A stretch of DNA of 64,000 nucleotides from positions 124,001-188,000 of the forward strand of contig JABLYA010000002.1 in the NCBI GenBank assembly GCA_013177855.1, read 5' to 3'. The stretch comes from Ignavibacteria bacterium. GTDB taxonomy: Bacteria > Bacteroidota > Ignavibacteria > Ch128b. The position numbers were made by a program, and so were the translations under genes. How positions within the stretch are numbered: position 1 is the first letter of the stretch; each line of letters begins with the position of its first letter. This document shows, piece after piece, positions 17,551 to 32,872 of the stretch. The notes below the pieces were generated by a model. It saw nothing but the letters and a program-made list of their open reading frames with translations, ran no database searches and had not been told where the DNA came from.

Positions 17551-19017
17551 TTATTCAATCTTTAATATTGGATAGTTTTTACAATTATAAAGATATCTGA
17601 ATTTTTCATATTGAACTAATCCGCTCATTGATTGCGGTTCTAATGCAAGAACAATTAAATTTTTCTTTAGTTGATCAGTTGGTATTAAAATATATTCTTG
17701 TCCAAGTTCTTCTTTATTTACTCTTTGCTCTTGAATTTGAATATCAACTAAATATTCCCCCTCAATTAAGATCGAATCAATGTTTATAACTTCATATCTA
17801 CTTATCACTTTATCATCAGGAATGATTTCCGAGTACCTCAAATTATGATCTTGAATAAATTCTACTAATAATTCATCATTCTTTGGAATTAAGTAAGCAA
17901 ATGGAATTTTTATTTTCAACAAGCTTTCAATTACCGGATGATAATTTGAAATTGAAATGATTGTATCTTTTTCTTCACCAACTAACTTTACTGGTAATTT
18001 GAATGACTGACCATCAGGGAAGTGGTCTGATCGAACAATTACGCTGTCCTTTTTAAGAATATCTTTTCTTGCGGCTTCGACAAGTTTTTTAATTTCTTTC
18101 TGATTTTGATAACAGAATTTCAAAAGACCAAGCATTGTTTCACATTGTCCCTTTGCTCTTCTCTCAATATTATCAAGATAGAAATCTCTGCCATTTTTAC
18201 CTTCAAGAATAAATGACAGAGTATTTAAGATTCCAAAACTTTGTCTACCATCATTTATATCGACTGTGCTGTGTCTTAGTCTTTCCTTGTCAGGTGGACC
18301 ACCTACAACATATTCACAGAAAGTATAATTTTTTGCTTTCAGATAATTTTCTATGAATGGTAAAACTTTTTTCTTTTGATAAGATCTTAACTTTTCATTG
18401 ATATTTAGGTTAGTCAAAAGACCCAGTTGTTCATCGGCATTCTTGTAATAATCAAATTCTTTCCAGTCATTTGAATATGGGAAATACTCGTGTACATCTA
18501 AAGTTACTTCAAAATTGTATTTATTAAAAAGTTTGTGAAGAGCTTTTGTTTCATTTTCTGTAAGAATTAAATGATTTCTGTTTAAGTCAACTCCATTAGA
18601 ATTTCTCCGCTGATTTTTTTCAGAACCATCTGGATTCATCTGGGGGATTAGAGCGAAATCAATACGATCAAATAAATAGTGATTTTCTTTCTTAAGAAGT
18701 TCTTTAATTAAGAATAGAACCCCTTCTTTACCAGATTGCTCATTTCCATGCTGTTGTGCAAAAAATAATATTTTCAGTTTGTTTTTGTTTTTACCAAAAT
18801 CGCCTTTTGAAAAATAAAGTATGTAAATTTCTCTTCCTTCATTAGTAGTTGTAAGAACTTCTTTTTTAATCAATCTCGAATTTTTGTCAATTTCAGCAAC
18901 ATACTTTTTCAGTTCCTCATAAGAAGTCAGACGGGTGAAATTGGATTTCTCGAGCGGAGTATCTTGAGAAAAAAGTAATGATAAATAAGCAAAAAGAATT
19001 AGCAAAACTCTAAACAT
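17551..19017 (-). CDS. Exported M14-family zinc carboxypeptidase
   Basis: A 488-residue secreted or periplasmic metallo-carboxypeptidase. It has a signal peptide (to about 18) and the zinc ligands H90 and E93 in QHGNEQSG and H176 in LDVHEY. Substrate-binding RRNSNGVDLNRN lies at 137-148 and the catalytic Glu is probably in FILEGKNG near 280. The HxxE...H order fits M14. A C-terminal domain of about 150 residues is probably a beta-sandwich. No T9SS tail is present. It follows the S51 gene by 51 bases and is probably co-transcribed, so it may trim peptides released by that enzyme. Confidence 0.85.
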   Translation of the reverse strand: MFRVLLILFAYLSLLFSQDTPLEKSNFTRLTSYEELKKYVAEIDKNSRLIKKEVLTTTNEGREIYILYFSKGDFGKNKNKLKILFFAQQHGNEQSGKEGVLFLIKELLKKENHYLFDRIDFALIPQMNPDGSEKNQRRNSNGVDLNRNHLILTENETKALHKLFNKYNFEVTLDVHEYFPYSNDWKEFDYYKNADEQLGLLTNLNINEKLRSYQKKKVLPFIENYLKAKNYTFCEYVVGGPPDKERLRHSTVDINDGRQSFGILNTLSFILEGKNGRDFYLDNIERRAKGQCETMLGLLKFCYQNQKEIKKLVEAARKDILKKDSVIVRSDHFPDGQSFKLPVKLVGEEKDTIISISNYHPVIESLLKIKIPFAYLIPKNDELLVEFIQDHNLRYSEIIPDDKVISRYEVINIDSILIEGEYLVDIQIQEQRVNKEELGQEYILIPTDQLKKNLIVLALEPQSMSGLVQYEKFRYLYNCKNYPILKIE

Positions 19018-19068
19018 ATAAAGTCCTTGATTTTTAATTTTTCAAAAAGATTAAAATACTTGAGTTGA

Positions 19069-21099
19069 TTACTTTAATAAAACCATTTTTCTTGTTTGAG
19101 AATAATTATCAATCTCAAGTCTTAAAAAATAAATTCCATTTGGCAGATCAGTTGCCTTGAAATCAAGTTCATAATACCCAGCATTTAGAAAATCATTAAA
19201 TAAAACTTTTACATTCTGTCCAAGAATGTTAAAAACTTTTAGTGAAACAAATTTTTGTTTATCCGATCTAAATGTAAATCTAATTTTTGTTTCATTGTTA
19301 AAAGGATTTGGGAAATTTTGATGCAGTTCAAATGGTTCAAATTCAACTTCTTCACTAAGTTCATTGACCGATGTTAATTGATCAAATTTCCCTTTATTAA
19401 ATAAATATTTTATTTGCGAATGATTTGTAATTGAAATCCTAAATTTATCAATTGCAACAACCTGTCTTGGACCGACACTTCCGCTTGCTCTATATGTTGA
19501 TGAATCGATATAAAGTGCATCTCGTGCATCAATGATTAAATATGGTATTGATACATTCCCAGATAGTGATGAATCAAATTTTGAAATCTCAACTCTGCCA
19601 GTCCCGTTCAGATATAACCCGAATCTTTTTCTATTTCTCATCATACCCCACAAAACAGAGCTCATCCGATTCTCGTAGAAATTCGAATTTTCATAAATCA
19701 TTGGTTGAAAAATTAAATCATCAAAAATTGAAAGACCATTATTATTAGTCATTCTTCCTCTAAACGAGGCAAGATTATCTAAATCAACATTATCAACATA
19801 AAATTGACCCGCAATCTTTCCAGAATTCCCGAAGAAAAATATTGGCTTTGATTGATTAATGCTTGAATAAAAAGAATCAGATAACAATGTTCCTTGTTGA
19901 TTTAGCAAAGTCAGATGTTTTAATGAATCACCTGCAATTATAAAGCAGGTTGCTGCTGAAATTTTTGATGCTTCTTCGGGAATATTCAATACTAAACTAT
20001 CGAGATATAAGACTGAGTAATTGTAATTATTTGATTGAAGATAATTTATGATTGTGTTTGTTCCAGAAAATCCTGGGTGAGTTATAAGTAAAATATTTGT
20101 TGAATTATTACTAATTAAAAATTGAGAAAGATTCTGATTGGTATGTAAACTAATATCGTTATTTCCAGTTAGATAAAAATTTGTCTTTGAAAAACTAAAG
20201 CCAGCAGAACTATCCAGTACTTTTGCTGAGGCAGGAACTTCTAAAATGTCAAGATTCTGAAAATCAAATTTCCAGTTTTTAGTTAAGAGATGACCGCGAA
20301 GATTTTCAATTGTGTATTTATTGTTTGTGAACTCAGATAGTTTGGTTTTACCATCGAAATAAAAAACTGCTACCGAGCCGCTTCCCATTACGACTGCTGA
20401 TTTATCAGGATAAATACAAATCGCTGTTCTGTCATCAATTCCGGCTCCGATTATTTTTTTCCCATATGTATAAAAAATATTATATAACATTGCAATTAAT
20501 CTGCCGTGTCGACCTCTTTCCATTAAATGTGTATCAATCAAAACATTTGGCATTAGATTTAAAAAATTATTTTCGAATTTCATTCTTGAATAGAAGGGAT
20601 TCAGCAAAGCTTCATCAGGATAGGCAGAACCATTTTGAGCGCTGAAATCAAATTCACCAAGTACCATTGCGCCAGCACTTGTTCCAGCAATTACACCACC
20701 ATTCTGAAAGACATATTTAATTGCATCTTCTGTTTTTGTCCCTTTCCACAATCTAATGTACTGCCATTGATCTCCACCTCTGAGAAAAATAGCTTTCGCA
20801 GTAATAAGTTCATCGTAAGTTGACTGAAGATTAGCTATTGTAGTTGAAGAAATTGTTTTATTATATGCAGTATCAGCACCAAGCCACATAAAATAATTTG
20901 GTAACCAGCTGGATGCATCTGAATAGCTTAAGATGATAATTTTTCCGCTATCTGATTTTTGCACAATCCAGCGGTAAGGTTCATCGCTCCAATCGTTGTA
21001 ATTTTCACTTCCTCCACCAATTGCACAAATGTAGCCCTGTGAGTAAAGAAGTTCTGTAAGGATAATTAAAATAATTAAGAAAATTTTATGAAAACTCAT
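19069..21099 (-). CDS. T9SS-exported S51 (cyanophycinase-family) protein
   Basis: A 676-residue secreted peptidase of the class I glutamine amidotransferase-like S51 family. It has a signal peptide (1-20), the S51 core with nucleophile S141 in GTSAGA, then IDTHLMERGRHGRLIAML and GAGIDDRTA. A second, divergent domain follows at about 330-580, and a T9SS sorting domain (NFPNPFNNETKIRF ... TRKMVLLK) closes it. I use the ATG at 21097-21099; the longer frame starts with TTG at 21120 and adds nothing recognisable. S51 enzymes cut cyanophycin or aspartyl dipeptides; the substrate here is unproven. Confidence 0.85.
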   Translation of the reverse strand: MSFHKIFLIILIILTELLYSQGYICAIGGGSENYNDWSDEPYRWIVQKSDSGKIIILSYSDASSWLPNYFMWLGADTAYNKTISSTTIANLQSTYDELITAKAIFLRGGDQWQYIRLWKGTKTEDAIKYVFQNGGVIAGTSAGAMVLGEFDFSAQNGSAYPDEALLNPFYSRMKFENNFLNLMPNVLIDTHLMERGRHGRLIAMLYNIFYTYGKKIIGAGIDDRTAICIYPDKSAVVMGSGSVAVFYFDGKTKLSEFTNNKYTIENLRGHLLTKNWKFDFQNLDILEVPASAKVLDSSAGFSFSKTNFYLTGNNDISLHTNQNLSQFLISNNSTNILLITHPGFSGTNTIINYLQSNNYNYSVLYLDSLVLNIPEEASKISAATCFIIAGDSLKHLTLLNQQGTLLSDSFYSSINQSKPIFFFGNSGKIAGQFYVDNVDLDNLASFRGRMTNNNGLSIFDDLIFQPMIYENSNFYENRMSSVLWGMMRNRKRFGLYLNGTGRVEISKFDSSLSGNVSIPYLIIDARDALYIDSSTYRASGSVGPRQVVAIDKFRISITNHSQIKYLFNKGKFDQLTSVNELSEEVEFEPFELHQNFPNPFNNETKIRFTFRSDKQKFVSLKVFNILGQNVKVLFNDFLNAGYYELDFKATDLPNGIYFLRLEIDNYSQTRKMVLLK

Positions 21100-21278
21100 G
21101 TCAATAATTTTTTTGATCAATAATAAAATGTTTTATCGAGATTAAAGAATAATTATTTCGAGCCTCAGAATGTAAATTAAAAGACAATCTCTCGTGCTCT
21201 AATGATTTTTCCCTTTATCAACTTAAATCAAGAATTTCTATAAACCTGTTCAGATCTAAAGTTTATTATTAATAATCT

Positions 21279-22268
21279 TTAAAATTCAAAGTTCAAAGAG
21301 ATACGATGAACATTTGGTAAAATTTTAAATGCCGAGTAACTGTAATCAAACGATAATTTATAATCAGCAAAAACAGTTTTTATCCCACCGCCAAGTGTAA
21401 AGTTTTCATCATCATAATTGTATTTGTATCCGCCTCGAATTGAAAGCATATCAAAGAAAGTAAACTCTGAACCGAAATGAATTCTTTCTTTATTGTCATT
21501 TGGGTGAGAAGCATCAATCCCAATTCGAGACTTAAAGAATTCGGTTTTAAATAAGTCCATTCCAATGCCCACTTGAAAATGTAAAGGCAAAGGATAGTCA
21601 TCGGTTACCAGTCGAGCAGGGGTTAATCTGTTTAAAGGAAAGTTATTATTTCTATCGTGAACTACATTTAAATCTGGACCGGACATATTCAAATCAGGGC
21701 CAAAGTTTGTCATTGACATTGCAATAGTTAAATTTTGAAAATCTAATGTGTATTGTGTCCCAATATCAAAGGCGATTCCATTAGAAGTCTCGTTCCATAT
21801 TCTTTGATAAATATATTTCATAGTCAAACCAAATCGAAATCTATCAGTCAAATTTCTTGCATAAGTTAACCCAATTGCCATATCCTGCGCATCAAAAAAT
21901 CTTCCCGTTCCATTTGGTTCTAATTCAGTTGTAATCTCCATCTTTTCCATATTCAAAACGATAATGCTTGCACCAAGTATTCCAAAATCACCGAAATTTT
22001 TCGCAACTGCGAAAGCATTAACATCAAAAAATTTGAACCAGTTGAAAAAAGTAAAATGAAAAGAAGTTGATTGAACATTTGCAATACCGGCTGGATTCCA
22101 GAATACTGCTGAAGCATCATCCGTTAGACCAACAACTGCAGAACCAAGTGCAGCGTTTCTTGCTCCTATAGGGATTTGTAAAAACTGAGCTCCAGATGTT
22201 CCAAGATTTGGATTTTGAGCAATTAAATTGATGGACAAAACTAAAACCAAAATAAAAACTCTTTTCAT
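21279..22268 (-). CDS. PorV/PorQ-family outer-membrane protein
   Basis: A 329-residue outer-membrane barrel. It has a signal peptide (to about 17), then the family opening LQIPIGARNAALGSAVVGLTDDASAVFWNPAG and many beta strands ending HRISLNFEF with a terminal Phe. PorV and its relatives act as shuttle or acceptor proteins in type IX secretion. A strong AAATTTGGAGGAGCT precedes the ATG. It is the last gene of the long operon from 32872, 14 bases after the large secreted protein, which suggests it serves that partner specifically. Confidence 0.85.
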   Translation of the reverse strand: MKRVFILVLVLSINLIAQNPNLGTSGAQFLQIPIGARNAALGSAVVGLTDDASAVFWNPAGIANVQSTSFHFTFFNWFKFFDVNAFAVAKNFGDFGILGASIIVLNMEKMEITTELEPNGTGRFFDAQDMAIGLTYARNLTDRFRFGLTMKYIYQRIWNETSNGIAFDIGTQYTLDFQNLTIAMSMTNFGPDLNMSGPDLNVVHDRNNNFPLNRLTPARLVTDDYPLPLHFQVGIGMDLFKTEFFKSRIGIDASHPNDNKERIHFGSEFTFFDMLSIRGGYKYNYDDENFTLGGGIKTVFADYKLSFDYSYSAFKILPNVHRISLNFEF

Positions 22269-22282
22269 AGCTCCTCCAAATT

Positions 22283-25048
22283 TTATTTAATTACTGCAAA
22301 TCGATTGAGATATTCACCTACACTCGTTTTAACAACATAAAGATAAATTCCCGTGCTAATTTCTCTTCCCCCTTCCGCTCTCAAATCCCAGATTGCTGTC
22401 CCAGTATTAGAATTATGATATATTGTTTTTATTAAATCTCCATCCAATGTAAATATGTAGATAGTGCATTCATTTGGCAGATTAATAAATTGTAATTGTC
22501 TAAGTGGTTCTCTTCTCAATTCGCCAAATTCTGGTTCAAATAAAGAAGAAACCACATAAGGATTTGGAACGACTTTAATCTTGCTTAAGTTTTCTTTTAT
22601 CACCTTCGACTCAATTCTTGATGGAAGAATAGAAAATCTATAAGCATCTCTTAAATTTGGTAAAACAGGAACAACTGTTTCAAATGAAAATACATTTCCT
22701 CGCGATGGTGGATTATTTGATTGAAATTCAAAACGAACATTAATTCCGTTGAATGTAATCGACTCTAAATTTCTGATTGTATCTTTTTTCATAATTGTAT
22801 CTAATCTTTCATTTCGAACGAGTACACTGATAAAGCCGGCGCCATTCACAAATCCATTGCTCTCAACTGAAATTAGATACATCATATTCTTTAATGCGGT
22901 TGTATCTGAAACAGATGGGATAATTTTCATAAAGTCAGAACCACTTACACGCGAAAGATTTCTGATTACATCTGGCGGAACAAGCGAAAACAAAATTCCA
23001 TCTGGTGTTGAATATGGTGTATTCAGCCAGAATGGTCTCTGATTTATCAGTGTATCCGACCCATTTTTAACTACAGTAGCAGCAAAGTTTAATGTAATAT
23101 AGTCACCTGCTTTTGGTTTAAATTCTGCTGGAACTGTTGGATCTGGATCTTCGATTTTAATTCGCATTCCTGGATTTACTGTATAAGTCGCTCCTGATAG
23201 ATAGCTTTTAGGATCAGGTGCGATGTAATCACCTGTGTAAAGATCAATTAAATGAAATTGGGTTTTTGAAATAAATTCAATTCCATATCGTTTGGGTTCT
23301 GTTCTGGATGAATCTGTAATAATGGGTGTGACTTTAGTTAAAAGTTTGCCCCTCTCTGTTCTTTGTACATAGGAAAATTTTAGTTCGTAAGTTCCACCAG
23401 CAAGTTCATCTTTATCAGTAGGATCTACAATCAATTGATAATTTGAATTTCCAGTACCAATATAAGCTACAGTATCCGAGCTAACAGATATCCTACCGAT
23501 TTGTTTAGAATAAGGAATAACTGCGATCGTATTTATAGCTGAAGTATCTTTACCAAGAGGACTTTCGAGACTCGCACCAACAAGCGTATCACCACGATCA
23601 TAAGATGTTACGCAATACCAGTATTCAATACCGTTTACAACTAAAGTATCAATGTATGAATATCGTAAACCTCGATCGAGACCAATTTTATTAGGTAAAT
23701 CGTAGTCGGCTAACTTTTGCCAGTTTACGCCTTTGTCAAGACTTTTGTAAACACGATAACCTTCAAAATCATATTCTCCGCTAAAACTATCTTTAGATTT
23801 TTCTGCTTTATCATCCCATATTAAAATTACTCTTCTATCACCTGCCCAGCCTGTTAGAGTTGGTGTAGCCGGCGGTTTGCTAATTTCAAAATCAAACTCG
23901 ATAATTTTATAAGCATTATCGAGATATCTTATTGCATCATCGTAATCATCACCTGCAATTATTGCAGTAATAAAAACAAGAGTATCGCCTACATTTAATT
24001 TATAAGGACCAGAGCTAATGGTTGCAACAATATCAAGTCCTGAAGCGGGAATTGTATTAGGATCATCATAATGAATATTTGGATTAGGACCAAGATGAAA
24101 ATATTTAGGACCCAGAGTTGGATTATTATATAATCTCGGATCACTTGACATTATCCAGTATTGTATAGAATCAATATCTCTATCATCATCGTAGAGATTA
24201 TAGTGCATATCAGTAATGCCAAGTTGTACACCATTAACTTCAGGCGTTCTTAAAAAAGCAACACCAAAATACCCTGTTTTTCCATCGGGCCACTCTCTTG
24301 AATATCCTTTAGCATCATAGAAATAGAGAAAATTCTTTTCTTTCAAAAATCCAATCTTATCATCAGCATACTCCGGGACGCCGCCGCTTACATTACCAAC
24401 ATCAATATCACAATACATAGCGAAGTAAAGACTATCAAGATCTTTTTTGCCCTTATTAATTACCAAGTACTTATAAAAAATAATATTCTGAGCAAACTTT
24501 ACTCCATAAGTGTATCCAATTTGATGAACTTCCAATCCAAGTATTGACTTTGAATTATTGCTGTCACTAAAAACACAGTAACTATCCTGATCGGATTTAA
24601 AGATTGGATTTCCATATTGATCTTTAATAGGCCAGCCATTAACTGGATGCCAGGTATCGGGTTTATCACTCATTGCAATTTTTGCAAGCTGCGGATTATG
24701 ATAACCACCAACTGCTTCCCACTCTTCGTTGGTTGTAAATCTTCCCTGAACAACATTATCCGGTACGCCAATGAACGGATTTATTCGATAGATATAATGT
24801 TTTCCACTATTTATTGGAAATTCACCGGATGGTCCCTGTGATAATCTTCTTGGATAAAGTTTACCTCTGTTTTCAAAAAACAAACCAATATTACTCGCAT
24901 TATGTACCCCACCTGCTCGATCTATTATTCCCTCTGATTTCTCAAGAGCTCTTAATCTTTCCATTTCTTCGATTTCTTTCTTGCTCTGTTGAGAATAAAG
25001 AGCAGAGATTGACAAAAAAATCAAAATGACTATAAATACTTTTTTCAT
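22283..25048 (-). CDS. Large secreted protein with Fn3-like and sorting-like ends
   Basis: A 921-residue exported protein with a signal peptide (MKKVFIVILIFLSISALYSQ). A long N-terminal region rich in Tyr/Asp loops comes first, then an Fn3-like stretch at about 395-490 (PPATPTLTGWAGDRRVILIW ... DFEGYRVYKSLD). The C-terminal 100 residues look like a T9SS/FlgD-like sandwich (VPNPYVVSSLF, then GREISTGIYLYVVKTSVGEY). The tail lacks the KKM(V)LLK end of the other five. It sits between the TonB receptor (25-base gap) and the PorV-like gene. I infer a surface partner of the receptor, not a known enzyme. Confidence 0.75.
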   Translation of the reverse strand: MKKVFIVILIFLSISALYSQQSKKEIEEMERLRALEKSEGIIDRAGGVHNASNIGLFFENRGKLYPRRLSQGPSGEFPINSGKHYIYRINPFIGVPDNVVQGRFTTNEEWEAVGGYHNPQLAKIAMSDKPDTWHPVNGWPIKDQYGNPIFKSDQDSYCVFSDSNNSKSILGLEVHQIGYTYGVKFAQNIIFYKYLVINKGKKDLDSLYFAMYCDIDVGNVSGGVPEYADDKIGFLKEKNFLYFYDAKGYSREWPDGKTGYFGVAFLRTPEVNGVQLGITDMHYNLYDDDRDIDSIQYWIMSSDPRLYNNPTLGPKYFHLGPNPNIHYDDPNTIPASGLDIVATISSGPYKLNVGDTLVFITAIIAGDDYDDAIRYLDNAYKIIEFDFEISKPPATPTLTGWAGDRRVILIWDDKAEKSKDSFSGEYDFEGYRVYKSLDKGVNWQKLADYDLPNKIGLDRGLRYSYIDTLVVNGIEYWYCVTSYDRGDTLVGASLESPLGKDTSAINTIAVIPYSKQIGRISVSSDTVAYIGTGNSNYQLIVDPTDKDELAGGTYELKFSYVQRTERGKLLTKVTPIITDSSRTEPKRYGIEFISKTQFHLIDLYTGDYIAPDPKSYLSGATYTVNPGMRIKIEDPDPTVPAEFKPKAGDYITLNFAATVVKNGSDTLINQRPFWLNTPYSTPDGILFSLVPPDVIRNLSRVSGSDFMKIIPSVSDTTALKNMMYLISVESNGFVNGAGFISVLVRNERLDTIMKKDTIRNLESITFNGINVRFEFQSNNPPSRGNVFSFETVVPVLPNLRDAYRFSILPSRIESKVIKENLSKIKVVPNPYVVSSLFEPEFGELRREPLRQLQFINLPNECTIYIFTLDGDLIKTIYHNSNTGTAIWDLRAEGGREISTGIYLYVVKTSVGEYLNRFAVIK

Positions 25049-25073
25049 ATCAAACTCTTCAATTTCTGATTGA

Positions 25074-27530
25074 TTAAAATTTAATTCCCATTCCTAATCT
25101 TATAATTCTTGGCGGACCATAATTTGCTGGATTTTTCATCCATTCTTCAGAATGACCGCCTACAAATGTGTATTCAGGATCCCCGGTATCAGGATAAACA
25201 TAAATAACATTCTTTCGATTAGTGAGATTATAGATTTCAGCAAAAATTCTGAGCTTTGAGTTTTTTATCAATTTAATCTCTTTACCAAGTTGTAGATCGA
25301 TTGTATAAGTAGCAGGTCTTCGGAGAGAATTTTTAACAACAAACCCTATGTCTCTTCCACTCGGAGTATAAGGATAACCACTGCTAGCTTTGAAAATCAA
25401 ACTATAATCTGTATTTGAAAAAAGTTTTAATCCCGAAAACTCTGGTCCTTCATTTTCTGGAATTGTGAAAGTTGCAGTTGCATTTAATACATGGGTTTTA
25501 TCAAAATCTAAGTAATAGAGCAATGTTGATTCTTGAGTTCCGGGATACTGCTCTGTTTCAGAAGATGCACTGCCCTTAGCAACGGAATAAGTATAAGTTA
25601 AACCACCAGAAAAATATCTATCGGGTCGAACATCAATTGTTAATTCAAGTCCTTTAATATTAGCATAGTCTTCATTTACATAAAGAGTATATCCGACATA
25701 TCTTCCTTCAAAGTAAGGGAAATAATATCGTGTACCTATTAATCCCGTTACATCTTTGTAATATGCAACAAGGTGAGCCGCCATTCTTTCAGAAAATTGA
25801 TGAGACAAACCAACTTCATAGGCAACAGTTCTTTGTGCATCAAGTGAAGGTTGACCAAAGAGAGGTTCTCTCACATTTAAATCATATTGTTTATTCTCAA
25901 ACAGAAACTCAAAGTCTGGGTTTTGAAAGAAATGTCCATAAGAAAAATGTAATTTTGTTCTGTCAGAAATCGGATGTGCAATACCCACTCTCGGGCTTAA
26001 CTGATATCTCGGTTTAACTTTAACAATTGAATTTGGATCTAATGGATTTTGTCTGAATTCAACATTTGCATTTAAGTAATCAAAACGGAGCCCAAGATTA
26101 ATTATTAAATAAGGATATTCAATTTTATCTTGTATGTAGGTTGCAAATTCAAATGGATAAGTTTTGTAATTATTTATATAAGGGAAATTTCTTTTAGGAT
26201 CGTAAATGTTCCAATAGCGTATCCAGTGCTTTTTAAATTGTCCTCCGAATTTCAATTCATGAATTTCTGAAGCCTGCCATTGGAAATCTATTTTAAAATC
26301 TGCAGTTACCGTACGGCTGTCCGTCATCTCAAGAGGATCGGCTTTAGAGTAAAATTCGAATCCGTTACCAATATTCGGAAAATATTCTCTCTGACTTACT
26401 GATAAATATTGAGAAGTATCTTTATCAATTCCAGAATAAAAGCCTTGATTGAAATAAGAAGCTCTGAAATCGTAAAAAAGTCTCGGCGATAATGTGTGAG
26501 TAAAGGTCAAAGCTGTCTGCCAACTGTCTGTTCTTATTCTCAAATATTGTTCGGGTATGTATTTAAATTCATGTGAATAATTTTGCCTTCTGCCTTTACT
26601 TCCTCTATTGGACAAAGTTATCTTAATTGAGGGAATATGAGTTGTGGTCAACTTTGAGAAAAAAGTAGAAACTTTATTATAGCCAAATGGGAGATAACTT
26701 CCTCGATTATCTCGATCAAAGGAGACAAAATATTTTAGTTTATTTGTAAAAATTGGTCCACTCAAACTTGCATTCAATCTATTTTCATCAAATTTATCGT
26801 ATGGACTCAAGCCAAAATCGCTCGTCCTAAATTCAAGTTTGCCGGAAAATCTGTCAGTTCCTTCACGAGTTACAATGTTAACAACACTGCTCATAGCATT
26901 TCCATATTCTGCATTAAAAGTCCCTGAAAGTAAAGTCATCTCTTGAATTGCATCATTGTTAATATCAGTTGCAAGCCGACCGAGTAAAGGATCTTTGACA
27001 TACATTCCATCTACAAGGTAAGCGACTTCATTTGTTCTTCCACCACGAACATGAATTGCTGTCCCTTCACCTACAACGCCTGCTTGAAGAGTTAATATAT
27101 CTGTAAATCTTGAAACAGGAAGTGCTTCAATTTTTTCTCTCGTAATGATTGATATTGAACTCGTCATATCTTTTTGAATCATTGGAGTCTTCGCGACAAC
27201 ATAAACTTCCTGCAATACAATATCTGTTTGTTTTAGCTGAACTGAAATTTCAGTCGTTTGATCTATAATTATTTTTACATTCTCAACTATTACAGCCTCA
27301 TAACCAATCGAGCTTACTCTTACTGAATAAACACCCGGAGGAATGTTGAGAATAACAAATCTTCCATTAACATCGGTTGCAGCACCTAAATTTGTTCCGA
27401 CTAAAATTACATTTGCCCCTATAACTGGTTCTTTCGTTTCTGCGTCTTTTACAGTTCCAACAAGTTTACCCGTAACCCCAGCAATTAAATTCGAACCAAT
27501 AACTAAAAAAAATAAAATTAATTTTTTCAT
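25074..27530 (-). CDS. TonB-dependent receptor with carboxypeptidase-regulatory-like domain
   Basis: An 818-residue outer-membrane receptor. It has a signal peptide (to about 17) and a CarboxypepD_reg-like beta domain at about 20-105 (GKLVGTVKDAETKEPVIGAN). The plug domain is at about 115-230 (TSSISIITREKIEALP, VRGGRTNEVAYLVDG) and the rest is a barrel ending in Phe. Such receptors take up oligomers too large for porins. It follows the RpiR gene by 14 bases, and its partners are the next two genes. The substrate cannot be read from sequence; peptide fragments from the S51 and M14 enzymes are a reasonable guess. Confidence 0.88.
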   Translation of the reverse strand: MKKLILFFLVIGSNLIAGVTGKLVGTVKDAETKEPVIGANVILVGTNLGAATDVNGRFVILNIPPGVYSVRVSSIGYEAVIVENVKIIIDQTTEISVQLKQTDIVLQEVYVVAKTPMIQKDMTSSISIITREKIEALPVSRFTDILTLQAGVVGEGTAIHVRGGRTNEVAYLVDGMYVKDPLLGRLATDINNDAIQEMTLLSGTFNAEYGNAMSSVVNIVTREGTDRFSGKLEFRTSDFGLSPYDKFDENRLNASLSGPIFTNKLKYFVSFDRDNRGSYLPFGYNKVSTFFSKLTTTHIPSIKITLSNRGSKGRRQNYSHEFKYIPEQYLRIRTDSWQTALTFTHTLSPRLFYDFRASYFNQGFYSGIDKDTSQYLSVSQREYFPNIGNGFEFYSKADPLEMTDSRTVTADFKIDFQWQASEIHELKFGGQFKKHWIRYWNIYDPKRNFPYINNYKTYPFEFATYIQDKIEYPYLIINLGLRFDYLNANVEFRQNPLDPNSIVKVKPRYQLSPRVGIAHPISDRTKLHFSYGHFFQNPDFEFLFENKQYDLNVREPLFGQPSLDAQRTVAYEVGLSHQFSERMAAHLVAYYKDVTGLIGTRYYFPYFEGRYVGYTLYVNEDYANIKGLELTIDVRPDRYFSGGLTYTYSVAKGSASSETEQYPGTQESTLLYYLDFDKTHVLNATATFTIPENEGPEFSGLKLFSNTDYSLIFKASSGYPYTPSGRDIGFVVKNSLRRPATYTIDLQLGKEIKLIKNSKLRIFAEIYNLTNRKNVIYVYPDTGDPEYTFVGGHSEEWMKNPANYGPPRIIRLGMGIKF

Positions 27531-27544
27531 AACCCACCTCTTCC

Positions 27545-28384
27545 TTAGGTTATTACTTGATTAAATCTTTTCATTATTAAATTAAACTCATTCAAAATTT
27601 TCTCGGCTCTCTTTTTATCCCTCTTTGCACATTCAGTCGCTATGGCATTGATCAAAACAGATATGGCTGAGAAAGAATTGGTAAATAGCATATTCTCACT
27701 TTTTACAATTAGTGAGTGTGTTGAATGAAATGTTAATGGTGCGGAACTCTTATTTGTAATTGCAACAATCTTAATTTTCCTTTCTTTAGCGAATTTTGCA
27801 GCTTCAATTGTTTCAACTGAGTATGGCGGAAATGAAAAAGCAATTAGCAAATCTTTATTTGTCATAAAAAGAATTTGATCATAAAATGTAGATGTATCAC
27901 TTCTCAAGAAACTTGAATCTATCCCTACCTGATTTAATTGATAAGAAAGTATCTGCGAAAGTAGATACGAAATGCCTAACCCCATCGTAAAAACTCTTTC
28001 CGATTTTAATATCAAATCAATCACTGAGTCAAAAGTACTTTTATCAATTAATTGAAGAGTTTCGTTTATGTTTTTAATTTCCTGATTTGCAACTGCTACT
28101 AACATGTGCTCCTTCAATTCATTCACTTTAATTGAAGGAAACATTTCAAGCTTTTTAAGATTTTTTTGCAATCCTTTCAATAACTCTGATCTAAATTCAC
28201 TATAACCTTTGAACCCAAGCCGTTGAGTAAATCTAACAATAGAAGCCACACTAAACTGTGTGGCTTCTGAGATTTCGTAAATGTTTAGAAAAGGAATTAC
28301 ATCAAGGTTTTCTAAAAAATAATCAGCAAGTTTACGCTGCTTCTTTGGAATCGAATTGTACCTGGCTAAGATTATGTTTTTCAT
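27545..28384 (-). CDS. MurR/RpiR-family transcriptional regulator
   Basis: A 279-residue regulator with an N-terminal RpiR helix-turn-helix (about 1-75: ISEATQFSVASIVRFTQRLG) and a C-terminal SIS domain (about 125-250: SERVFTMGLGISYLLSQILS) that would sense a phosphosugar or related ligand. Its ATG overlaps the stop of the upstream gene as TAATG, so it is translated with it. It lies in the middle of the operon it probably controls. RpiR proteins in some Pseudomonas-type amino-acid clusters regulate peptide catabolism; whether this does is inferred. Confidence 0.9.
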   Translation of the reverse strand: MKNIILARYNSIPKKQRKLADYFLENLDVIPFLNIYEISEATQFSVASIVRFTQRLGFKGYSEFRSELLKGLQKNLKKLEMFPSIKVNELKEHMLVAVANQEIKNINETLQLIDKSTFDSVIDLILKSERVFTMGLGISYLLSQILSYQLNQVGIDSSFLRSDTSTFYDQILFMTNKDLLIAFSFPPYSVETIEAAKFAKERKIKIVAITNKSSAPLTFHSTHSLIVKSENMLFTNSFSAISVLINAIATECAKRDKKRAEKILNEFNLIMKRFNQVIT

Positions 28385-29487
28385 TATTTCAATAGAACCA
28401 TTTTTTTAATTGATGTAAATTGACCAGAGCTTAGTTTGTAAAAGTAGATACCAGATGTCAATTCAGAAGCATCAAATTCAACAAAATGTTTTCCCGCATC
28501 AAGTTCTCTATTAACCAAAGTTTTTACTTTTTGTCCAAGAGAATTATAAACAGATAACTCAACATTTTGCTTTTCTGGAATTGAGAACTCAATCATAGTC
28601 TTTGGATTGAATGGATTGGGATAATTTTGTTTTAATTCGTAGGAGTAAGGATTTATTCCATCATTTACTGTTGTCAGGGTTGTGTATTTTGCGTAGGCTT
28701 GTTCCATATTATTAATCAATTGTGTCTCATCACTTCCAACTGCAATCCCAACCCAAAAATGAGCAGAATCATTGGGCTGAATGGTTACAGGTTCTTGAGT
28801 TAAAATAGCAACTGAACCATCACCGCCGGCAACAAAGGAAGTATCAAAGTTACCATAAGTTAAATATCCCCAGAGAAGTGAGTCAGGATCATAATAAGAA
28901 GCCGTCCAATCAATTACTCTAAATGAATAAGTTGGTTGTGAAAATATTTTGTATCCGACCAGAGGACTTGTTCCTCTGAAAGAATAACCAATGTAATTTG
29001 GCAAATTGAATTTAACTGTTTCAAGTCCATAAGTTCCATCAGGCTGTGGAATAAATTCAATTCCTATAAACGGAGTAAGAGTAGAATTCTCGCGATTAAC
29101 CACAGTGAATTTACAGATTACATAACTCTGATTCTGCCACCCATAAACTGAAAGTCTGACAAGAAAGTTTGGCGGTAAATTTGAATAAGCATTATTAAAT
29201 GCGCCAAAAATTTCATAATCGCTTTTCTCAGGGCTTTGTACATTATAAGGTTGAATTTCTGTATCCGCATCTTTTTTGTAATCATATACCTGATCTTTGT
29301 TAACACCAATTAAAATTGACGATCTATCAATTTGTCTTAAATTGTTTATTGCTGGTGAATGTATACGAACCCTTCCATAAACATTCACCTCCACTCCGAT
29401 ACTACCGGTTTAAAAACTCTGAGCTAAAAGCTCGTGAAATTGAACTCCTATCAAAAGCAGGAGACTAGTTAGTAGAATTTTTTTCAT
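28384..29487 (-). pseudogene. T9SS-sorted exported protein interrupted by an in-frame stop
   Basis: The reading frame starts at ATG 29485-29487 behind GGAGGTGC with a good signal peptide (MKKILLTSLLLLIGVQFHEL, then LAQSF). Codon 26 is TAA (29410-29412). After it the same frame runs on as TGSIGVEVNVYGRVRIHSP for a further 340 residues. It ends in a T9SS sorting domain (NYPNPFNPKTMIEF ... KKMVLLK). No shift is needed, only one base, for example C to T turning CAA into TAA. A GTG at 29392-29394 would allow an unexported 336-residue product but has no proper Shine-Dalgarno. It could be a recent nonsense mutation, a sequencing error or recoding. Function unknown. Confidence 0.75.
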
Positions 29488-29506
29488 CGCACCTCCATTT
29501 GTTTTA

Positions 29507-30913
29507 TTATTGATAGTTAATTAAAAATGGTGGAATTAAGAGAATAAATCCCAACAAGAATAATATTACCATTAAAGGCAAAACCAATTTTGCCCATCTT
29601 TCCCAGGGCACTTTAGCCATTGTTAGAGCACCCATCGTAACCGCCGAAGTTGGAATAATGATATTTGTGTATTCACCAAATTGAAAGGCTAGTATTGCTG
29701 TTTGTCTTGATACACCTGTTAAATCAGCAAGCGGAGCCATAATTGGCATTGTAAGTGCAGCCTGTCCACTTCCACTGTGAACAAAGAAATTAATTATTGC
29801 TTGAACTATAAACATTTTCTGTGCAGAAAAAATTGGAGAGGAAGATTCAACAAATGGTGTCAGTCCATATAAAATTGTATCAATTATATGAGCATCTCTT
29901 GAAATAACCAGAGTTGCTCTAGCTAAAGCAACAATTATGGCCGTACCCACCAGATCTTTTGCACCATTGATGAATGAATTAACAATTTTATCTGTCTTTA
30001 ATCCACCAAAAATTCCTGCAAGTACTCCCATAATCACAAACAAAGCAGAAATTTCTTCAATGAACCATTTGAATTTTATAACTCCAATTACAAGTCCAGC
30101 TAAACTAAGAACAAAGATTAACAGAACAAGTTTATGTCTTAGTGTCAATTTTTCTTCCGAATTCAATTCTAAATTCGTTTCGTTAAGTTTTCTTTCCTGA
30201 TCAATATCAAATACTGGACTAATGGATGGATTTTTATAAACCTTTCTCGAATAATAAGTGATAAAAATTATTGCAATTGTAGTTGAGATTATCCAGCAGA
30301 AGACTCTATAACTCAGACCAGAGAACAAGGGGAGCTCAGCAATCCCCTGAGCAATTCCTACATTAAATGGATTTAAGAAAGCACTTGCAAATCCTATGTG
30401 AGCACCAATAAGCGGAATTGCAACACCAACAATCGAATCATATCCTAATGCTAGTGCAATTGGAACCAGTATCAAAACGAAAGGAATTATCTCCTCATTC
30501 ATTCCGAATGTCGCCCCACCAAAAGAGAAAAGAATAACAAGTATAGGAATAAATGCTGCACGCATTATAGGAGATTTATTATGCATTAAAAGAAGTCTTT
30601 TAATAAAAGCATCAATTGCACCAGTGCTTGTCAGAACATTAAAAGCACCACCAACAAAAAGAATGAATCCAATTATCAAGGCGGCTTCTTTAAATCCTTT
30701 TAATGGTGCAATGAAAAGATCAAATAAGTCCTGAGGATTGCTCTCTACATATTTAAAAGAACCAGGAACAACTACCTCACGCCCATTGACTAAAGTTCTT
30801 TCATATTTACCGCCAGGAATTACCCAGGTTAATATTGCTATAAATACCAGCAATGAAAAAATGAGCAAATAAGTATTTGGTACTCTTAATTTGAATTTAT
30901 AGTTGGTTTTCAC
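29507..30913 (-). CDS. YfcC-family (DcuC superfamily) membrane carrier
   Basis: A 468-residue inner-membrane carrier with about 11-12 helices of the C4-dicarboxylate anaerobic carrier/YfcC type. It begins with VPNTYLLIFSLLVFIAILTW and the VIPGG motif, later HSGSGQAALTMPIMAPLADL, a family signature. Escherichia coli YfcC is annotated as a putative basic-amino-acid antiporter and the family includes arginine/ornithine exchangers; dicarboxylate carriers are relatives. It overlaps the S51 gene by 4 bases, which ties the carrier to the peptidases. Uptake or exchange of Asp/Arg-type amino acids would fit but is unproven. Confidence 0.85.
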   Translation of the reverse strand: MKTNYKFKLRVPNTYLLIFSLLVFIAILTWVIPGGKYERTLVNGREVVVPGSFKYVESNPQDLFDLFIAPLKGFKEAALIIGFILFVGGAFNVLTSTGAIDAFIKRLLLMHNKSPIMRAAFIPILVILFSFGGATFGMNEEIIPFVLILVPIALALGYDSIVGVAIPLIGAHIGFASAFLNPFNVGIAQGIAELPLFSGLSYRVFCWIISTTIAIIFITYYSRKVYKNPSISPVFDIDQERKLNETNLELNSEEKLTLRHKLVLLIFVLSLAGLVIGVIKFKWFIEEISALFVIMGVLAGIFGGLKTDKIVNSFINGAKDLVGTAIIVALARATLVISRDAHIIDTILYGLTPFVESSSPIFSAQKMFIVQAIINFFVHSGSGQAALTMPIMAPLADLTGVSRQTAILAFQFGEYTNIIIPTSAVTMGALTMAKVPWERWAKLVLPLMVILFLLGFILLIPPFLINYQ

Positions 30914-31770
30914 TTTACAACACTCTTTGATTTAAGATCAAATTTTTGTCCAGATACCAGGATGTGCATTAAGATATTAGAGCCACTAAGTTTATTGCTT
31001 TGATTTTTAGTTACCTGTGTTGACTTAGTTGGATCAAAGACGATTACCTGACTTTCCCCTATTACTTCAAAGGTTTGATCTGGATAAACAACAATCGCAG
31101 TAGACTCATCAATACCAATTCCAAGTTTATCTTGATTTTCAAGAACAACACTAATTAGTCTATTTAACCTTTTTCTTTTAATAAAGTGTTGATCAATAAT
31201 AGAATTTTCAATGAAACCAAATCCTTCGGATGTAATTATGTTCTCAGCTTCAATACAATTAAAAGGATTTGAGGAATCCTTGTTTCTGTATTCATCCCCG
31301 GTAATCATAATTTTACTCATTACAGCAGCACCTGCGCTTGTTCCACTTACAACACCACCACTTTTGTAAATACTCTTTATCAATTCTAAAAGTGATGTAT
31401 TAAGCAAATCTCTGGTTAATAAATTCTGATCTCCGCCCGAAAAGAAAACAACATTACAATTTTTGAACTGCTTAATGAATCCTTCATCATTTGCCTTTTC
31501 TCTATCGCCATAAAACACAAGAACATCTTTAAAGCCGAGTGCTTGAAACTCTTTTTTCAATCTTTCACCCGTAATTAATGGCTCACTTGAAGCATTGGGA
31601 ATAATCAAAACTCTGGAATCAGCTTTACTAAGTTCAAGTATTTTTGTCATAATTTCGTCAGTTCGATTACCACCACCAATTATGATAAGATACCCTTTTG
31701 GTTGAGCGAAGAAACTTTCCAGAAAAAAGAGAAAAAGTAAAACAATTAATTTGATTTTACTTTTAATCAT
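30910..31770 (-). CDS. Periplasmic cyanophycinase-family (S51) peptidase
   Basis: A 286-residue S51 peptidase with a signal peptide (to about 22). The core carries the nucleophile S145 in GTSAGA (143-148), IIDQHFIKRKRLNRLI and LGIGIDESTAIVV, and it fills the whole protein, unlike the T9SS-exported paralogue at 19069. Cyanophycinases split multi-L-arginyl-poly-L-aspartate into beta-Asp-Arg; other S51 members are alpha-aspartyl dipeptidases or act on isoaspartyl peptides. It overlaps the M20 gene by 8 bases and the YfcC gene by 4. Confidence 0.85.
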   Translation of the reverse strand: MIKSKIKLIVLLFLFFLESFFAQPKGYLIIIGGGNRTDEIMTKILELSKADSRVLIIPNASSEPLITGERLKKEFQALGFKDVLVFYGDREKANDEGFIKQFKNCNVVFFSGGDQNLLTRDLLNTSLLELIKSIYKSGGVVSGTSAGAAVMSKIMITGDEYRNKDSSNPFNCIEAENIITSEGFGFIENSIIDQHFIKRKRLNRLISVVLENQDKLGIGIDESTAIVVYPDQTFEVIGESQVIVFDPTKSTQVTKNQSNKLSGSNILMHILVSGQKFDLKSKSVVK

Positions 31771-32872
31771 AGTTCATTAAATGATAAGCTATTTTCGATG
31801 CTTGAACTAAATGTTCAATTAAAATGTATTCATTATTGCTATGCGGATTTTTAGCTCCGATTCCGATATTTATTGTTGGTATGCCTTTCTCGTTTAATGA
31901 ATTTGCATCGCTGCCGCCAAATGAGATTTTTTCTTCTGGTTTTAAACCTGCTTTTGAAATCGCATCTACAATTCTTTTATAAACATCCCATTCAGGTTTA
32001 ATCTGATATGGTTTGAAATCCCAACTAAAATTAAAATAAATTTTAGCCCCAAAGCTTTTTGCTTCATTTTCAAAAATATTTTTTACTGTAAGAATCAAAC
32101 TATCGACTTTCGAAGAATCAAAAGATCTAATTTCACCTTCAATTATTACCAATTCCGGAACCACATTCGTAGCTTCACCACCAGAGATTTTTCCGATATT
32201 CAAAGTTGTTTCTTCTTCAATTCTTCCTTGCTTAATCCTTGAAATTGCCTTAGCAGCTACTTCAATTGCATTGATGCCTTTTTCTGGTTCAATACCAGCA
32301 TGCGATGCTTTTCCTTCGATATTGACTTTGAACATTAAAGCACCAGGAGACTTGATTATGAAATTACCAGGATCTAAATGAGAATCGAAAACGAAACCCA
32401 TTTTAATATTATTTCTCAATTTTAGAAATCTTGAACCGCTCAGAGTCGTTTCTTCACAAATAGTAAAAGCTATTGTGAACGGTTTAATTTTTCTTCCATT
32501 TTCAATTGATTTTTTTAAGGCATAAAGGATTGCCGAAATGCCTGCACGATTATCGGCACCGAGGATTGATCTACCGTCTGAAGTTATTTTACCATTTTGA
32601 ATTATTGGTGATAAATTCTTTGTTGATCTGGCTGTATCCATATGAGAAAGCAAAACAAAATCACCACCACCATTAATTTCACAGATCAAATTTCCAGAAT
32701 TGCCCCCATCAATTTGAAATGCATCATCTTCAAAAACTTTAAGATTAAACTGACTGATAAATTCTTTAATAAACTCTGAAACTTCCCTCTCGTTTTTCGA
32801 TAGCCCCTCAATCTTGGAAAGTGAAATGAAAAGATCTACAAGTTCATTTTCATTAAAATTATCTGTAACCAT
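31763..32872 (-). CDS. M20-family metallopeptidase (PepT/PepV-like)
   Basis: A 369-residue cytoplasmic di- or tripeptidase. The metal ligands fit M20: H77 and D79 in SHMDTA, D107 in GADNRAG, E140/E141 in CEETTLSG, and a late His in KNPHSNNEY. A dimerisation domain lies at about 185-295. No signal peptide is present. It is the first gene of the operon, 36 bases after the predicted -10 box. It would split the dipeptides imported by the downstream carrier. Confidence 0.88.
   Translation of the reverse strand: MVTDNFNENELVDLFISLSKIEGLSKNEREVSEFIKEFISQFNLKVFEDDAFQIDGGNSGNLICEINGGGDFVLLSHMDTARSTKNLSPIIQNGKITSDGRSILGADNRAGISAILYALKKSIENGRKIKPFTIAFTICEETTLSGSRFLKLRNNIKMGFVFDSHLDPGNFIIKSPGALMFKVNIEGKASHAGIEPEKGINAIEVAAKAISRIKQGRIEEETTLNIGKISGGEATNVVPELVIIEGEIRSFDSSKVDSLILTVKNIFENEAKSFGAKIYFNFSWDFKPYQIKPEWDVYKRIVDAISKAGLKPEEKISFGGSDANSLNEKGIPTINIGIGAKNPHSNNEYILIEHLVQASKIAYHLMNYD

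Follow-up and report, generated by a model that had tools for sequence, protein, structure and literature searches.

A putative cyanophycin-scavenging operon with two S51 peptidases in an Ignavibacteria genome

In the 3.66-Mb genome of an Ignavibacteria bacterium (G000), we analysed a window of 64,000 nucleotides, positions 124001-188000 of contig JABLYA010000002.1 (here C2). The window's gene calls place ten genes at 32872-17551, all on the minus strand and centred on two family S51 peptidases, and we consider it probable (roughly 0.7) that they form an operon for scavenging cyanophycin, that is, for breaking it down, importing it and using it. The gene order is M20, S51b, YfcC, T9x, RpiR, TonB receptor, Sec921, PorV/PorQ paralog, S51a and M14 (Table 1). 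An earlier note on this DNA had already proposed the use of a cyanophycin-like polymer, a proposal that is supported by the clade to which S51b belongs, by genomes free of CphA and by the gene neighbours, the polymer being either cyanophycin or a close beta-aspartyl-arginine polymer.

S51b exceeds the cut-off of the cyanophycinase equivalog model TIGR02069 (195.5 versus 126.6 bits). Nine positions of CphB (101, 132, 172-174, 178, 180, 183 and 201) were compared, which, following the CphB structure paper, we take to be the triad Ser132/His174/Glu201 and the pocket residues Q101, D172, Q173, R178, R180 and R183. All nine match structure 3EN0 in 19/19 S51b proteins, that of the window included. 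As a positive control, the CphA-adjacent S51 proteins (33 genes located in 40 CphA regions) read Q, S and D, then T (17), Q (9) or S (7) at position 173, followed by H, R, R, R and E. The negative control, Escherichia coli PepE, reads TSNPHERRE and, at the aligned positions, is without Q101, D172, Q173 and R178. Furthermore, the S51b proteins form a single clade (99/99) in the tree, within the CphA-adjacent and solved cyanophycinases. S51b has the full set of CphB pocket residues to which the earlier note had pointed, and S51a retains most of them, so that they are not missing in both. Family score, pocket and tree agree on a cyanophycinase-type enzyme, and S51b presumably has that activity and would be located in the periplasm.

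The distribution of CphA is informative as well. No CphA over the cut-off was found in the genome, where the best of 15 weak matches reached 152 bits against a cut-off of 850. A search for S51b covered 149 genomes, the window's own counted, and gave 25 matches at E 1e-15 or better. CphA occurs in six of the 24 S51-bearing relatives, which belong to a single family and each carry a distant S51, and it adjoins that S51 gene in 6/6; it is absent from the remaining 18, namely G037 and 17 relatives of the S51b type. Because CphA is absent where S51b is present, yet stands beside the distant S51 in 6/6, the locus looks like one for scavenging and not for storage. Together with 49 genomes from a draw on the phylum, these six relatives brought the CphA genomes found to 55, of which 40 regions were compared. 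Orthologs over threshold of M20, YfcC, T9x, RpiR, the TonB receptor, Sec921, PorV, S51a and M14 were found in 0/40 CphA regions.

The other S51 protein, S51a, is predicted cargo of the type IX secretion system (T9SS), with a C-terminal sorting domain over the cut-off (TIGR04183, 37.4 versus 23 bits). In an alignment of 41 of 55 S51a matches, from which eight duplicates of unnamed loci and six matches at or below 240 bits were dropped, Q101, Ser132, His174, R178 and R180 are present in 41/41 and the pocket string QSDTHRRRD in 30/41. The window protein carries Thr at 173 and Asp at 201. Thr173 lies within the range of CphA-neighbour enzymes, because Thr or Ser occupies this position in 24/33 CphA-adjacent S51 proteins. 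The tree places S51a in a separate exported clade, outside the cyanophycinase clade. In its AlphaFold2 (AF2) model (mean predicted local distance difference test score, pLDDT, 90.9), residues ~20-288 matched cyanophycinase entries in a structure comparison (VIA) with Z-scores of 28-30, 6nqc with 23.4 and PepE-type entries with 17-20.

In addition, S51a seems to contain a second, degenerate S51-like domain. In hhalign, residues 295-575 align with S51 profiles across 190-240 columns, with probabilities of 91-94% for the S51b profile, 97% for the CphA-adjacent profile, at most 1% for eight unrelated profiles and only 36% for S51a's own first-domain profile. In the window protein this middle domain lacks the GTSAG and DxH motifs. 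The VIA list does not give it as a separate block, which for this tool is no evidence either way, and the second-domain claim rests on the profile comparison. Since CphB is dimeric, a natural reading of S51a would be a one-chain, internal pseudo-dimer.

The layout of the genes is compact. The intergenic gaps from M20 through the PorV paralog are -8, -4, 19, -1, 14, 25 and 14 bases, which bears out the eight tightly packed genes with gaps below 30 bases described in the earlier note; S51a starts 179 bases after the PorV paralog, and M14 51 bases after S51a. Of the gene content listed there, the S51 pair (S51b with an apparent Sec signal, S51a with a T9SS tail), M14, M20, the YfcC/DcuC-family carrier, RpiR, the TonB receptor and the 921-amino-acid protein stood, while the supposed PorV proved to be a PorV/PorQ-family paralog and the T9x gene had been missed. 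The single promoter proposed there is no more than putative: the region has a 10/12 sigma-70-like site at 32936-32908, yet such sites are no commoner than in shuffles (73 observed in the region versus 83.1 expected).

Among the 17 close-type relatives, profile matches over threshold were obtained for M20 in 15, for RpiR in 13, for YfcC, T9x and the TonB receptor in 11 each, and for Sec921, PorV, S51a and M14 in nine, eight, seven and six, respectively, the later genes being undercounted because several stretches stop inside the operon. The full ten-gene order is present in loci L048 and L049 and, across split contigs, in L046/L063 and L047/L065, and this order, or long parts of it, was found again in relatives from several of the class's families. 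When named genomes were scanned for S51a, 45 loci emerged, most of them under the label Ignavibacteria or a synonym, others under Bacteroidetes and a few from elsewhere; a TonB ortholog over threshold accompanies 26/45 of them, as does a PorV ortholog. Locus L050 (G078) keeps a four-gene block, M20-S51b-S51a-M14, from which the triad of TonB receptor, Sec921 and PorV paralog is absent. In the place of the triad, L051 (9260-14019) has a 1068-amino-acid TonB protein and a 515-amino-acid protein with no Pfam match, after the S51 genes. In L062 (9545-11568), S51b stands on its own, adjoining a gene for anhydro-N-acetylmuramic acid kinase.

As for the triad itself, the receptor is not a SusC over the cut-off (TIGR04056, 85.4 versus 368.25 bits), and no SusD family is represented among the ten operon proteins. 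The predicted structure of Sec921 has a mean pLDDT of 68, and the top rows of a Foldseek search were mostly fibronectin-type receptors with low template-modelling (TM) scores, from which no function was read. The PorV paralog falls below the PorV equivalog cut-off (74.4 versus 250 bits), while meeting the wider PorV/PorQ model. A Sec921-like gene and a TonB plug lie just upstream, on the same strand, at 7/12 over-cut-off PorV-family genes of the genome, the window's counted, whereas 1000 trials with the 21 plugs placed at random averaged 0.23 triads and never exceeded three. The seven copies are spread over contigs C1 and C2. No account of the unit was found in the titles and abstract openings of a mostly open-access literature on cyanophycin, cyanophycinase and PorV in Ignavibacteria.

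The final dipeptide step may fall to M20, a putative cytoplasmic dipeptide hydrolase. Its residues H77, D79, D107, E140, E141, D163 and H344, presumably metal-binding and catalytic, are invariant in 16/16 orthologs. M20 orthologs of at least 480 bits occur in 17/18 S51b genomes versus 1/131 others (Fisher p 3e-20, kinship ignored), and at a looser E of 1e-70 in 17/18 versus 13/131. The idea that M20 might be the dipeptidase lacking from storage clusters was considered and is unsupported, no CphA region having a match over threshold and one having a 47-bit match. The carrier, named YfcC in the earlier note, belongs to the YfcC/DcuC family but is not a YfcC equivalog (389 bits, below the cut-off of 500). 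In M14, the motifs HxxE, DxH and FI[LQ]E are kept in 7/7 aligned proteins.

Gene neighbourhoods elsewhere bear on the same step. The S51b locus L056 (G147), which has no M20, consists of a TonB receptor, S51b, a TPR/esterase protein and an IaaA that carries a 35-residue leader, a row that brings beta-aspartyl peptidase chemistry near S51b; the M20 of this genome lies on another contig (L189). Two loci carry M20 and YfcC without S51: in L194 (6743-10413) they stand in a row with an Asparaginase_2 (IaaA-like) gene, and in L193 (6410-11685) they follow a T9SS-tailed, exported protein of the peptidyl-arginine deiminase (PAD) family. The neighbours in L056, L194 and L193 link M20-YfcC to beta-aspartyl or arginine chemistry. 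In L191 and L192 (7470-18550), the triad, a T9SS-tailed protein (with a weak alpha/beta hydrolase match in L191), M20 and M14 occur together with no S51 match, showing that M20, M14 and the triad are also put to use on other substrates.

From these data we infer every substrate, transport direction and step order of the following scheme, including the enzyme activities, TonB uptake and the substrate of YfcC. S51a, exported to the cell surface via type IX secretion, would clip arginyl-polyaspartate to give short beta-Asp-Arg pieces, which the TonB receptor, its dedicated surface protein Sec921 and the PorV-type partner would pass through the outer membrane. Periplasmic S51b would then cut the pieces into beta-Asp-Arg dipeptides, while M14 may trim other pieces in the same compartment. 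Through YfcC, the dipeptides or a freed basic amino acid would cross the inner membrane into the cytoplasm, where M20, or a housekeeping IaaA-like enzyme, would complete dipeptide cleavage, with RpiR as the likely regulator of the operon. A broader proposal is put forward only tentatively: in Ignavibacteria, a modular uptake unit of TonB receptor, surface protein and PorV may replace SusC/SusD and be wired to two-tier cyanophycinases with a pseudo-dimeric S51a, M20 being a further, unrelated beta-aspartyl dipeptidase fed by YfcC.

Several observations weigh against cyanophycin scavenging. S51a is under the cyanophycinase equivalog cut-off (91.9 versus 126.6 bits), and its position 201 is Asp in 34/41, Glu in 1/41 and non-acidic in 6/41 proteins. 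The closest solved relative, 7uqv, carries the title 'pseudo-CphB', so that pocket identity may not guarantee activity. No IadA over the cut-off was found in the genome or among the ten operon proteins, and the genome's IaaA-like gene belongs to a family present in 133/149 relatives, its profile being uninformative. M20, M14 and the triad are not specific to cyanophycin, because they stand together without S51 in L191 and L192, and the S51b of L062 has none of the operon partners. RpiR regulators, moreover, usually sense sugar phosphates.

Conceivably, the operon could serve other isoaspartyl or aspartyl peptides, such as those derived from aged extracellular protein, the specificity of the S51 enzymes then being relaxed. 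S51a differs at 173 and 201 and lies outside the cyanophycinase clade, M14 and M20 belong to general peptidase families, and M20-M14-triad loci without S51 exist; however, all nine CphB positions, 4/9 of which PepE lacks, are retained in S51b, which is also over the equivalog cut-off, and we regard this explanation as unlikely. The sevenfold occurrence of the triad in the genome and the association of M20-YfcC with a PAD-family protein would also suit a generic peptide-utilisation locus, in which the S51 pair is one of many swappable peptidases and the polymer a different Arg- or Asp-rich peptide. Such modularity leaves the evidence for S51b specificity standing, though, and the ten-gene order is kept across families, which makes this account quite improbable. 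Very little weight is given to a role in defence, with S51 enzymes detoxifying peptidyl-nucleotide antibiotics in the manner of MccG: the available text of PMC9239234 reports such protection for an enzyme of the same family, S51, but assigns cyanophycinases to clade IV and MccG to clade V, PADLOC had no match for three window proteins, and a complete uptake operon surrounds the S51 genes. Scavenging of cyanophycin is the explanation that we prefer.

With regard to T9x, an in-frame TAA is located at 29410-29412 (minus strand). The corresponding codon is CAG in L046, CAA in L047 and also a Gln codon in L048, and the gene is intact in these relatives. Because the TAA replaces a Gln codon of three relatives, the window copy is probably broken or misread, by a nonsense change or a sequencing error, respectively.

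Table 1. Features of the S51-centred gene region, in window coordinates
Feature	Coordinates	Strand	Evidence
M20 metallopeptidase, PepT-like, no signal peptide seen	31763..32872	-	TIGR01883 271.1 bits, cut-off 274.25
S51b, cyanophycinase-family serine peptidase, apparent Sec signal	30910..31770	-	TIGR02069 195.5 bits; pocket QSDQHRRRE as 3EN0; tree
YfcC/DcuC-family inner-membrane carrier	29507..30913	-	PF03606 359.7 bits; NF008611 389 bits, cut-off 500
T9x, T9SS-tailed exported protein, in-frame TAA after signal peptide	28384..29487	-	TIGR04183 48.2 bits; codon comparison
RpiR-family regulator (HTH_6 + SIS)	27545..28384	-	PF01418, PF01380
TonB-dependent receptor with CarboxypepD_reg domain	25074..27530	-	PF07715 44.8 bits
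Sec921, 921-amino-acid secreted protein, conserved receptor partner, no Pfam family	22283..25048	-	
PorV/PorQ-family outer-membrane paralog	21279..22268	-	NF033709 221.5 bits, cut-off 90
S51a, S51 domain + degenerate S51-like domain + T9SS tail	19069..21099	-	TIGR02069 91.9, TIGR04183 37.4 bits; AF2; VIA; hhalign
M14 metallocarboxypeptidase, apparent Sec signal	17551..19017	-	PF00246 78.1 bits; motifs

Cyanophycin utilisation loci are already known, and the pair of S51 enzymes was foreseen in print (available text of PMC6243061). The locus of Salinivirga cyanobacteriivorans L21-Spi-D4 (Ben Hania et al. 2017, as cited in the accessible parts of PMC10206079 and PMC6243061) likewise combines cyanophycinase and transporter genes, and CphA is absent from that genome too. 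As here, S51 proteins occur in pairs of one plain and one Por-tailed member in Salinivirga and strain Omega, where they are called cyanophycinases, and the S51 gene context of strain Omega is unlike that of Salinivirga (PMC6243061, same text). The present locus differs from that of Salinivirga in having no IadA, in having the TonB/Sec921/PorV triad for SusC/D, and in its additional YfcC, M20, M14 and RpiR genes. The Ben Hania-type Salinivirga locus is said to resemble a polysaccharide utilisation locus, with SusC/SusD. With CphB of Synechocystis (3EN0, 7UQW), S51b shares family, triad and pocket residues, but it has an apparent Sec signal and occurs in a CphA-free genome.

An M14/AstE-like cyanophycin dipeptide hydrolase is described in PMC10206079 and named CphZ in PMC12661447, according to the available text of both. 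Here, too, an M14-type gene lies inside a presumed cyanophycin locus, but the M14 of the window apparently carries an export signal and fits PF00246 best, with AstE_AspA at 19.6 bits, below the cut-off; no chain named as a CphZ-type dipeptide hydrolase was present among its PDB matches. A TonB-dependent transporter gene near a cyanophycinase gene was also noted in Citromicrobium sp. JLT1363, where, in the part of PMC3400609 available, proximity alone is reported. In a mostly open-access literature, no match was found for cyanophycinase joined with type IX secretion. What the present locus adds is a putative import module, a tandem S51a and a possible M20-YfcC dipeptide step, and the surface enzyme and outer-membrane module appear unlike those of known scavenging systems.

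Isoaspartyl dipeptidases of CphA-bearing Firmicutes and Bacteroidota are still undiscovered, according to the accessible text of PMC10206079. M20 is a testable dipeptidase candidate for scavenging loci, not for storage clusters. Cyanophycin is a nitrogen-rich store, and its recyclers outside its makers are little known; the recurrent TonB/Sec921/PorV unit would represent a second way of capturing polymers on the cell surface.

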